In this document: positions 30,152 to 52,781 of the stretch, one piece after another
How the letters are laid out: each line of letters starts with the position of its first letter
How positions within the stretch are numbered: the stretch's first letter is position 1
Source: an uncultured Eubacteriales bacterium
GTDB lineage: Bacteria; Bacillota; Clostridia; Christensenellales; CAG-314
DNA length: 64,000 nt
Assembly (NCBI GenBank): GCA_949289125.1
Contig: CASEME010000018.1
Coordinates: 62,001 to 126,000, forward strand
Reading direction: 5' to 3'
Notes under the pieces: model-generated
The model's database searches: none
The model's input: the letters and a program-made list of their open reading frames with translations, nothing else
What the model was told of the DNA's origin: nothing
Position numbers and translations under genes: made by a program

Positions 30152-30652
30152 CTATTGCTCTGTCAACGCATTGTTGACATACACACTTACAGCTGTATTG
30201 TAGCCGTTATCTATTACTGTTGGCAAAGTACTGACACATTGCCAATCTTTGTTGTCGTCGAGATTGGGAAAAAACACTGTTCCGTTGCCCACAGCGTCCA
30301 CTTTAGTTACATACGCTTTGTGACAATAAGGCAAAAGCAGCTTGTACACCACACCGCCTCCGCACACAAACACATCGTCTGTTGAGTATTGCGAAACATA
30401 TTGCAACAACTCGTCCAACGATGTCACCGTCACTGCGTTGTCGTACTGCGTGCCTTTGGAATCCAATACAATGTTGATACGCTTAGGCAATGCGCCGTTG
30501 GGCAAACTTTTGAAAGTGTTTGCACCCATAATCACCACTTTATTGAGCGTCATTTTGCGAAAATTGTCTTTGAGATCGAGCGGCAAGCTGAACAGCAAAT
30601 TGTTGTCCTTGCCTATTGCCCACTCTTTGTCTACAGCCACAATAGCATTCAT
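30152..30652 (-). CDS. folA: Dihydrofolate reductase
   Basis: Reduces dihydrofolate to tetrahydrofolate with NADPH, regenerating the cofactor oxidised by ThyA. The 166-residue protein has IVAVDKEWAIGKDNNLLF (Met20-loop region), LDLKDNF (catalytic Asp helix), VIMGANTFKSLP and the CGGG nucleotide loop. The start ATG at 30652 shares one base with the thyA stop (TAATG), so the two are translationally coupled. Confidence 0.95.
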   Translation of the reverse strand: MNAIVAVDKEWAIGKDNNLLFSLPLDLKDNFRKMTLNKVVIMGANTFKSLPNGALPKRINIVLDSKGTQYDNAVTVTSLDELLQYVSQYSTDDVFVCGGGVVYKLLLPYCHKAYVTKVDAVGNGTVFFPNLDDNKDWQCVSTLPTVIDNGYNTAVSVYVNNALTEQ

Positions 30653-37621: not shown

Positions 37622-38461
37622 TTAGAAATACAGCCAAGGCACCATCGGGCTCAATGTGCCCGACATAGCATAGAGTGTGATTACTCCGCCCCAAAAAATT
37701 AGCATAACAAGCGTTGCCACCACATCACGCCAACCTATACGCATAACACGCATACTTGTGCGTTTTACCGGTCCGCCATAGCAACGACTGCTCATGGCGT
37801 TGGCAAGTTCTTCCGCTCTTCTGAAGCTGGACACCAACAGCGGAATAAGTATAGGCACAAAGGCCTTTGCACGCTTTATCAGTCCGCCTGTATCGAAGTT
37901 GGCGCCTCTTGCCTTTTGCGCACGGATAATGCGGTCGGTCTCCTCCATAAGACTGGGGATAAATGACAACGTAAGGCTCATAATAAGTGCCAATTCGTGT
38001 ACGGGTACTCTGATAAGTTTTAATGGTTTCAACAAACTTTCTATAGCGTGCGTAAGGTCTACGGGCGTTGTGGTAAGCGTCAACAAACTTGCACCCATCA
38101 CCAAATACACCAAGCGCAAAAACAACTTTGCCGCACTGTACAGACCTTGGTCATAAATACTGAATATCCACCATTGCCACAGCAGTTTGCCCGACGTATT
38201 GAGAAAAATGTTGAGTATAACTGTAAGCAGCAACAAGAACAATATTCCTCTCAATGAGCGCAAAATGCTTTTAAGCGGCACACGCGAGCACGCTATCATA
38301 ACCACAAGCAACACGGTAAGAAAACCGTACACAGCAAACGAAGTTATGAAAAATATGCCCACAAGGTACAGTATATTGAGCAATATTTTTACCCTTGCAT
38401 CCATAGAGTGCATAAAGGAGCGAGTGGGATAGTACTGACCAAAAGTAACGTCTCTAAACAT
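37622..38461 (-). CDS. ecfT: ECF transporter transmembrane (T) component
   Basis: EcfT couples the two ATPases to exchangeable S components. About 279 residues from the ATG at 38461 (GGAGGTTGGAG upstream), overlapping the ecfA2 stop by eight nt. Four to six membrane helices and the two coupling-helix motifs RAQKARGA and SSRCYGG (ARG motif, slightly altered in the second). It serves S components encoded elsewhere, such as those at 5.5 and 52.2 kb. Confidence 0.95.
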   Translation of the reverse strand: MFRDVTFGQYYPTRSFMHSMDARVKILLNILYLVGIFFITSFAVYGFLTVLLVVMIACSRVPLKSILRSLRGILFLLLLTVILNIFLNTSGKLLWQWWIFSIYDQGLYSAAKLFLRLVYLVMGASLLTLTTTPVDLTHAIESLLKPLKLIRVPVHELALIMSLTLSFIPSLMEETDRIIRAQKARGANFDTGGLIKRAKAFVPILIPLLVSSFRRAEELANAMSSRCYGGPVKRTSMRVMRIGWRDVVATLVMLIFWGGVITLYAMSGTLSPMVPWLYF

Positions 38462-50796: not shown

Positions 50797-51174
50797 CTAA
50801 ACAATATGATGGAAGTCTGGCACAACGTTGTCGGGTATATATTCCAACAGCGTTTTGATAACTTTGAGTTGCGCTACAAGATCCTCATTCATACCGCCAA
50901 TAAGATAGCCTTCCGCCTCGGATATGCGCAAAGTAACTTCGTACACGTCCGTATGCGGCAACAACAGCTCACTAAGCGTGCGCAGTTTGCTCCAATCATC
51001 GGCAAACTGTTGGTATTCCTTTTGGGTAAGACTATTGTTTTCGGCAAGACTTATAAGCTCGTTGCACCTTTGTGACACAACTTTGTATCTGTTACTTACA
51101 ATTAGTACTTCTGTTATGCCTGCGCCCAAAATAAGTAGCAAAGCCAACAATCCTGCAATAACATTTTTGTTCAC
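50797..51174 (-). CDS. DUF4363 family protein
   Basis: A 125-residue protein with one N-terminal membrane helix (~4-26) and an extracytoplasmic helical domain, like the DUF4363 proteins that accompany YetF-type membrane proteins in Clostridia. The start is GTG at 51174, overlapping the yetF-like stop by four bases (GTGA), so translation is coupled. Function unknown. No signal-peptidase site is obvious, so it is probably anchored. Confidence 0.75.
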   Translation of the reverse strand: MNKNVIAGLLALLLILGAGITEVLIVSNRYKVVSQRCNELISLAENNSLTQKEYQQFADDWSKLRTLSELLLPHTDVYEVTLRISEAEGYLIGGMNEDLVAQLKVIKTLLEYIPDNVVPDFHHIV

Positions 51175-51851
51175 TTTATCAGTTTTTCCCCCTCTATATT
51201 TTCAAAAGAGATACTGCGGTTTTTTGTCTGCAAAGTCATTCGATTTTTTTCATCCACTGCCAAAAACACCACATGACTGAGCTTTATTTTGCGTTTTTTG
51301 AGCAACGCCTGTACTTTATTTTTATCTATGCCATTGCGTGATATGTCGTCCTCGTCCCACTTTCCCTGCATAATGACAGGCACAGGCAACGTTTGCTGTT
51401 TTTCGGTAATTTGTTTGTTTTCAACTACCGTCAGTTGTCCGTTAGTTTCCATAATGGCGTACAATATTTCTTCAAGTGAAAAGTGATTTGTGGTGCGCAA
51501 CGCCTGCAAAAGATCATTGACCTGCATATTGAGCCTGTGCAAAGCATAGGTATTGATGCCGCTCTTATCCACCACCATGACAGGCTTACCACTAAGGATA
51601 TTTTGCATACGCATATTTTTGGACAGCAACAATATTAGCTGATGAATAACAAACATAGTCAATATGCCAACTATACCAAATGTAAGCGGTACTGTGCGGT
51701 CGGATACGGGTATACACGCAAGGTCGGCAATAACAAGCGTTATTACCAATTCAAAAGGCTCCATTTCTCCTATTTGACGTTTACCCATAAGACGTATAAC
51801 TACAAGCAATACGGTAAACATTATCAAAGCACGCAAGAAAATAATTATCAT
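51171..51851 (-). CDS. YetF/DUF421 family membrane protein
   Basis: About 226 residues from the ATG at 51851: three membrane helices, the conserved RLMGKRQIGEMEPFELVITL segment and a soluble DUF421 domain (RMQNILSGKPVMVVDKSGI...). Bacillus homologues are spore- or envelope-associated, but the molecular role is not settled. A start eight codons upstream (TTG) is unlikely. No clear ribosome-binding site; a perfect palindrome lies 11 nt upstream. Confidence 0.85.
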   Translation of the reverse strand: MIIIFLRALIMFTVLLVVIRLMGKRQIGEMEPFELVITLVIADLACIPVSDRTVPLTFGIVGILTMFVIHQLILLLSKNMRMQNILSGKPVMVVDKSGINTYALHRLNMQVNDLLQALRTTNHFSLEEILYAIMETNGQLTVVENKQITEKQQTLPVPVIMQGKWDEDDISRNGIDKNKVQALLKKRKIKLSHVVFLAVDEKNRMTLQTKNRSISFENIEGEKLIK

Positions 51852-51861
51852 AGCATTATTA

Positions 51862-51877
51862 GTGTGTTGCAACACAC
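51862..51877. repeat. Perfect 16-bp palindrome upstream of the yetF-like gene
   Basis: GTGTGTTGCAACACAC reads the same on both strands, and ATTAGTGTGT / ACACACTAAT arms extend the inverted repeat to 51858-51883. It lies in the divergent region between the yetF-like gene and the folT leader: a candidate operator. Confidence 0.55.
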
Positions 51878-51934
51878 ACTAATTATACCAACAAATGTAA
51901 CAACAAACGCTTTACAAAAACACCTCTATGATGT

Positions 51935-52170
51935 AGACTTATGCTATCAATAGCAAAGTCTTCAATATGCGTCAAGTGTCGTATGTAAGGAAGTCACTGC
52001 GAACGAAAGAACGTACATTTTGTTGCTAAGTTGCAACAAATACACAATACGTTCTGCGGTATATTGTAGAGTCCGTTGCTATTTATTTGTAACAGTATCT
52101 TTACTGTCCAACACAATCACACACAACAAGACTTCCTTTGCTATCTATCAGTTGAGGAAGTCTTTTTTAT
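51935..52170 (+). promoter_or_regulatory. Structured attenuator leader (riboswitch-like) of the folate-type ECF S component
   Basis: A strong terminator (AAGACTTCCT 52128-52137 / AGGAAGTCTT 52155-52164, then TTTTTT) lies 48 nt before the coding start. AAGGAAGTC at 51987-51995 can pair instead with the terminator 5' arm (52130-52138), giving mutually exclusive folds. Between them is a long hairpin: ACTGC/GCGGT (51996-52000 with 52056-52060), a 7-nt bulge, AGAACGTA/TACGTTCT, and TGTTGC/GCAACA, then an ACAGTA/TACTGT stem. Another hairpin (51935-51961) precedes it. No T-box TGG-type bulge and no THF-riboswitch consensus were recognised. Confidence 0.6.
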
Positions 52171-52217
52171 GTCAGTACGCATTACTTGAGGCAAGCAATC
52201 TTACAGGAGAACAACCA

Positions 52218-52781
52218 ATGAACAACGTCAAAAAACTTACAATAACTGCAGTACTTACTGCTCTTGCACTACTTGCCAACACCTATTCCATACCACTGTT
52301 TGGCTCTTCCAACTATCTCAGTTTTACTTTTATACCATGCTTTATTGCAGGTATCTATCTTGGTTGGGCAAGCGGTCTTACCGTAGGACTTGCAGGCGAC
52401 ATATTGGGACATATTTTGCACCCTATGGGCGCATACAATCCGCTTATAGGCATAGCAACAGGACTATTGGGCGTTATACCCGCCATCGTGTACAAGTTTG
52501 TCAAAGCCAACGACATCGTCAAACTGATATTGAGCTTTGTACTGTGTATGATTATTTGCACTTCGGGACTCAACACTGTTGCGTTGTGGCTAATGTACGG
52601 CGTTGGCAAAAAGACCTTTTTTGTATATCTATGGGGACGTCTACCTTTCCAACTGCTTATGGTTGCCGTCAACTGTATAATAATGATTACGCTCAAACAA
52701 TCGCGCATATTGGACAAACTTTTTGCACGAATGTTGGACAACGACAATGTCGATGTGGTCAACACTGAGGACAACAAATAA
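52218..52781 (+). CDS. ECF transporter S component, folate-type (FolT-like)
   Basis: A 187-residue membrane protein from the ATG at 52218 (CAGGAGAAC upstream; an open frame running back to 52020 merely covers the leader). About six helices. The N-terminal KKLTITAVLTALALL, LSFTFIPCFIAGIYLG and GDILGHILHPMGAYNP segments resemble folate-family S components. It would associate with EcfA1/A2/T (37.6-40.2 kb). Folate uptake would fit thyA-folA, but the substrate is inferred from family resemblance only. Confidence 0.78.
   Translation: MNNVKKLTITAVLTALALLANTYSIPLFGSSNYLSFTFIPCFIAGIYLGWASGLTVGLAGDILGHILHPMGAYNPLIGIATGLLGVIPAIVYKFVKANDIVKLILSFVLCMIICTSGLNTVALWLMYGVGKKTFFVYLWGRLPFQLLMVAVNCIIMITLKQSRILDKLFARMLDNDNVDVVNTEDNK

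Follow-up and report, generated by a model that had tools for sequence, protein, structure and literature searches.

The THF-I riboswitch has two ligand sites, and their roles are debated. In the reported structures, the pterin at the pseudoknot site is in contact with U7, U35, and U42, and that at the three-way junction is in contact with U25 and C53 (PMC9881143; PMC6614920). Work summarised in PMC9881143 holds that control requires the pseudoknot site and that the junction site helps the RNA to fold. In a tectoRNA study, the outer pairs of the pseudoknot tolerated mismatches (PMC6614920). A variant of this aptamer is a natural test of how the THF switch works. No description of a THF-I variant with a remodelled pocket was found in the literature searched, which lay outside the main THF-I structure papers.

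The leader described here precedes folT in a stretch of 64,000 nucleotides from an uncultured Eubacteriales bacterium (the window; positions are counted from its first letter). When the leader was scanned against 4227 Rfam families, the full RF01831 model was matched at 42.4 bits, above the gathering score of 36 (Table 1). An earlier note on this DNA, made by eye, had described the leader as uncharacterised and without a match to the THF consensus, and had proposed an Rfam search; that search returned a known class, the outcome that the note itself had set as a refutation, so that neither description holds. Judged from the covariance model, the leader is a THF riboswitch, a lineage-specific variant of THF-I. 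It is the one riboswitch that Rfam found in the whole window, and the source genome has just one RF01831 element, which lies upstream of folT. The Rfam model of THF-II gave no match in the leader among the 4227 families. The only other match, to Yfr10 (52106-52177), was sub-threshold (21.9 bits; gathering score 43) and was rejected as chance. The aptamer score is modest, 42 bits compared with 54-94 for most of the listed RF01831 members of the order. The aptamer was presumably missed by eye because P4 is 48 nt long and because L3 and J2/1, the most recognisable stretches, are off consensus.

Table 1. Features of the folT leader in the window
Feature	Position	Strand	Basis and remarks
Putative sigma-70-type promoter, TTTACA-17-TAGACT	51911-51939	+	Consensus match; boxes 51911-51916 and 51934-51939, 17 nt spacer; similar placement in relatives
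THF-I riboswitch aptamer	51952-52080	+	RF01831, 42.4 bits, gathering score 36, model 1-99/99
P1 5' strand, AGCAA	51952-51956	+	Pairs with UUGCU 52076-52080; Rfam alignment
AAGUG, carries U25 (51977) of the junction ligand site	51974-51978	+	Residue roles from PMC9881143; numbering inferred
Loop L3, AAGGAAGUC	51987-51995	+	GGA 51989-51991 can pair with UCC 52072-52074 (pseudoknot); complementary to 52130-52138
ACGAA, carries C53 (52004), partner of U25 at the junction site	52003-52007	+	Numbering inferred
P4 hairpin, unusually long	52008-52055	+	39-nt insertion relative to the Rfam model
J2/1, UAGAGUCCG, pseudoknot receptor	52067-52075	+	GAGUCC in place of canonical GC(A/G)UCC
Antiterminator 5' strand, GAGUC-C-GUUG	52069-52078	+	Pairs with 52124-52134; duplex -8.1 kcal/mol
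Antiterminator 3' strand, CAAC-AA-GACUU	52124-52134	+	Overlaps the terminator 5' arm
Intrinsic terminator	52128-52168	+	Stem 52128-52164, U-run 52163-52168
Shine-Dalgarno, AGGAG	52205-52209	+	Sequence; apart from the terminator
folT, folate-family ECF transporter S component, 187 aa	52218-52781	+	TIGR04518 94.5 bits (cut-off 60); PF12822 64.9 bits

The leader region folds better than its shuffled sequences (z -4.7; 0/200). The terminator that the earlier note had placed 48 nt before the gene is real: the segment 52125-52168 folds at -16.8 kcal/mol, 48 nt 5' of the ATG at 52218. It is absent from the list of the consensus scanner, which has a loop limit of 8 nt, yet the fold is clear. The promoter rests on a weak consensus match (three such matches were found, with 3.4 expected by chance), and a -10-like box lies directly 5' of the aptamer in the relatives as well. 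The left edge that had been given to the leader (51935-51945) is thus probably promoter DNA, outside the transcript. A hairpin at 51935-51961 that overlaps P1 was rejected as a part of the switch, since it is probably untranscribed promoter DNA.

The complementarity reported between the nine-base segment and the terminator 5' arm is exact, with a duplex energy of -13.7 kcal/mol. This segment is the aptamer loop L3, normally the partner of J2/1 in the ligand-binding pseudoknot. The domain of about 135 nt with a long bulged hairpin, which was thought to be closed by this pairing, corresponds to the THF aptamer with its long P4 in an alternative pairing.

The window residues that correspond to U7, U25, U35, U42, and C53 were assigned through the Rfam alignment and the crystallised sequence, and their numbering is putative. 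It agrees with the description of the loop positions in PMC6614920. The window was compared with leaders of two sister genera in the same family, g6 (Candidatus Limihabitans stercoravium) and g2. Because the MAFFT alignment misaligned L3 in the variant leaders, this loop was read segment by segment; one irregular g2 leader (L050, genome G269) was left out of the segmented set. In the other leaders, the GG..GU signature of L3 is nearly universal (102/103) and A8 is found in 97/103; the J2/1 residues before UCC are GCG or GCA in 87/103 and CAC in 13. In the variant clade, L3 is UAAGGAAGU in the window, GAAGGAAGA in 2/2 g6 leaders, and UUAGGAAAA in 21/21 segmented g2 leaders, and C79 of J2/1 is missing in all 24 leaders. 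At position 35, U is replaced in the window (by A) and in g6; U42 is replaced in g2 and g6. Position 8 and G36 are also altered in the clade. The window retains U7 and U42; against the roughly five pairs of the THF-I pseudoknot, its only Watson-Crick pairs are those of GGA/UCC. The pseudoknot of the variant may have shrunk to this core together with possible purine mismatches. U7 is retained throughout the clade, and the inverted three-way junction, with its motifs AAGUG, ACGAA, and GCGGU, is present in the window, g6, and g2. A different pseudoknot variant occurs in f3, another family of the order (e.g. L156, L160, L167-L170), where L3 ACGGGGGGUG is accompanied by J2/1 CACUCCC; the change is apparently compensated.

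Alterations at the pterin tetrad (position 35 in the window and g6, position 42 in g6 and g2), at position 8, at G36, and at C79, and a new g2 loop that is invariant across 21 species, are what would be seen if the clade had switched its ligand, with a rebuilt pseudoknot pocket for a different pterin, a different form of folate, or some other compound. This seems improbable, as the downstream gene still belongs to the folate-family S components and the junction also binds pterin through U25 and C53, both of which are retained.

The earlier note had suggested that covariation be examined among relatives. A search for a further genome of the genus to which the window belongs found none; the covariation evidence comes from g2. 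Among 19 distinct g2 sequences, P2, P3, and P4 covary: over the entire structure, 15 pairs are changed on both sides, and none of 500 shuffles reached this number. In this set, neither the inner P1 pairs nor the pseudoknot shows any change, and both are hence uninformative. All 16 g2 leaders that were re-scanned scored above the Rfam threshold (41-49 bits), and therefore the g2 leaders are formally THF riboswitches.

These data bear on the idea that the window element is a decaying, unresponsive riboswitch from which a constitutive partial termination is left. Its low score, altered L3 and J2/1, and weaker J2/1 antiterminator would fit such decay, and in two g2 leaders (L075, L078) no THF aptamer can be recognised between folT and the gene before it, which is an apparent loss of the riboswitch. 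Decay of the window element is nevertheless very improbable: the four helices, the junction motifs, a strong terminator, and both exclusive pairings are intact, and the sister genera share the remodelled site with helices that still covary.

RF01831 is common in the order (167/297 genomes) and in the family (20/41). The RpoB tree unites the window genome with g6 and g2 in a group (support 100/98) that adjoins the genus g3, and the g3 member G311 has canonical L3 and J2/1; the variant is confined to this single group. Within the group, g6 and g2 are joined without the window lineage (88/86), which branches first. The pattern fits a site that arose once, with the window loop as an intermediate. 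Among named genomes, the closest relative found is Candidatus Limihabitans stercoravium, whose FolT is 61% identical. A FolT tree was replaced by RpoB as a guide to the history of the variant, as it was poorly resolved and scattered the variant; it gave five variant changes, at least two of them forced by well-supported branches, and it includes a divergent S-component pair. In 391 genomes sampled across the class, the g2-type loop gave one match elsewhere, no more than the reversed-pattern control.

The antiterminator was examined in 127 segmented leaders, almost all of them belonging to the order, and a hairpin with a U-run was located in 109. The terminator finder is crude and picked coding-region hairpins in some leaders, which weakens the J2/1 signal but does not create it. 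In the 109 leaders, pairing of J2/1 and the P1 3' strand with the terminator 5' arm had a mean energy of -10.2 kcal/mol, compared with -8.8 for swapped partners and -7.2 for shuffled arms. L3 showed no signal beyond chance with the same arms (-8.56 kcal/mol against -8.54 for shuffled arms). Since the J2/1-P1 pairing exceeds its controls and the L3 pairing equals shuffled arms, an ordinary P1-linked antiterminator is supported as the usual one across the order, and the pairing of L3 with the terminator was rejected as a general mechanism.

The P1-linked expression platform, that is, the terminator and the J2/1-P1 antiterminator, is present in the window, where the antiterminator duplex can form; the sister genera have stronger duplexes, of about -9 to -17 kcal/mol. 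For RNA up to 52144, antiterminated folds are favoured: -53.7 for the free fold and -52.2 with the J2/1-P1 antiterminator, compared with -46.3 with P1 closed. Once the 3' arm of the terminator has been added, the best fold combines P1 with the terminator (-63.1). The latter state was also given by the unforced fold; a forced-pair fold with an off-register terminator was left out. These energies, which ignore the pseudoknot and the ligand, give the balance expected for a ligand-tuned terminator.

The earlier note took the pairing between the nine-base segment and the terminator 5' arm as the switch. This pairing is feasible, but the order-wide data favour the J2/1-P1 antiterminator. In the window itself, free L3 might be the main antiterminator, with the ligand locking it in the pseudoknot so that the terminator forms. 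The pairing is a perfect 9-bp run, the sole run above 7 bp between a leader's own L3 and arm among the 109; in the partial transcript, this route (-53.5) is as stable as the J2/1 route (-52.2), and CGGAC, the partner of GUCCG in the sister genera, is missing in the window. We consider this route unlikely in view of the null result across the order. In addition, a canonical relative (L039, genome G315) has the same arm, GACUUCCUU, next to a CGGAC element of the ordinary kind; selection for complementarity to L3 is therefore not needed to explain the arm. Both L3 and the terminator 3' arms are purine-rich, pairing of the whole L3 requires opening of P3, and the complementarity may be a coincidence.

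The reading that we strongly favour is a THF-I riboswitch that controls folT by transcription termination, in a clade-specific variant with a remodelled L3-J2/1 site and a preserved three-way-junction site. It agrees with the suggestion of the earlier note that a riboswitch-type attenuator with mutually exclusive folds precedes a folate S component, a suggestion that is supported. When THF is plentiful, the aptamer would fold and P1 would hold the J2/1-P1 3' strand; the terminator 5' arm would then be free, its hairpin would form, and transcription would stop upstream of folT. When THF is scarce, the antiterminator strands would pair and block the terminator, so that FolT is made and folate is imported. 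We infer THF as the ligand, the OFF direction, and the sensing site of the variant from the sequence. The modest score, A at position 35, a pseudoknot of perhaps three Watson-Crick pairs, and the comparatively weak J2/1 antiterminator duplex of the window weigh against this reading.

The gene content is in line with folate import. No match to the pterin-binding/DHPS family was found in the genome, which is about 92% complete. Genes for DHFR (30206-30652, minus strand) and an ECF-T component (37760-38422, minus strand) are in the same window, apart from folT. From these observations, and from RF01831 before a FolT-family gene, it fits that the organism imports folate and turns FolT off at high THF; at this completeness, the absence of DHPS is suggestive. 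A divergent YetF/DUF421 gene (51171-51875, minus strand) adjoins folT, and this neighbour recurs upstream of folT in several of the family's genomes.

The claim of an uncharacterised riboswitch falls away, and the variant aptamer remains of interest. Tentatively, the clade might have replaced the pseudoknot site, with control either left to the junction site alone or taken over by a rebuilt pocket, and the window, as the earliest branch, would be an intermediate whose L3 is also capable of antitermination. A natural clade with the junction site kept, the pseudoknot site remodelled, and the helices under selection makes the roles of the two sites directly testable.

Compared with known systems, the THF-II riboswitch (folE motif) shares the ligand class with THF-I and differs by its two-helix architecture, Gram-negative hosts, and folE genes (PMC9881143). 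Canonical THF-I (RF01831) shares with the window the P1-P4 architecture, U7 in J1/2, the AAGUG, ACGAA, and GCGGU junction motifs, UCC in J2/1, folT downstream, and a terminator with a J2/1-P1 antiterminator. The window differs from it in L3, where AAGGAAGUC replaces (U/C)GGGA-N-GU, in J2/1, where GAGUCC replaces GC(A/G)UCC, in position 8, which is C instead of A, and in its 48-nt P4. The g6 and g2 leaders share with the window the remodelled L3 and J2/1, the GGA/UCC core, and the junction site. The g2 leaders differ from it by the loop UUAGGAAAA and by a conserved six-base P4 loop, YCAUNY, found in 20/21 leaders (e.g. L045, L063, L080, L199-L204) and absent in g6 and the window. Both genera differ from the window by CGGAC before the terminator and by a terminator that overlaps the Shine-Dalgarno sequence: its 3' arm AAAGGAG is the Shine-Dalgarno directly before the ATG (e.g. 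L054, L065, L080, L047), and the hairpin in g2 and g6 may block both transcription and translation.
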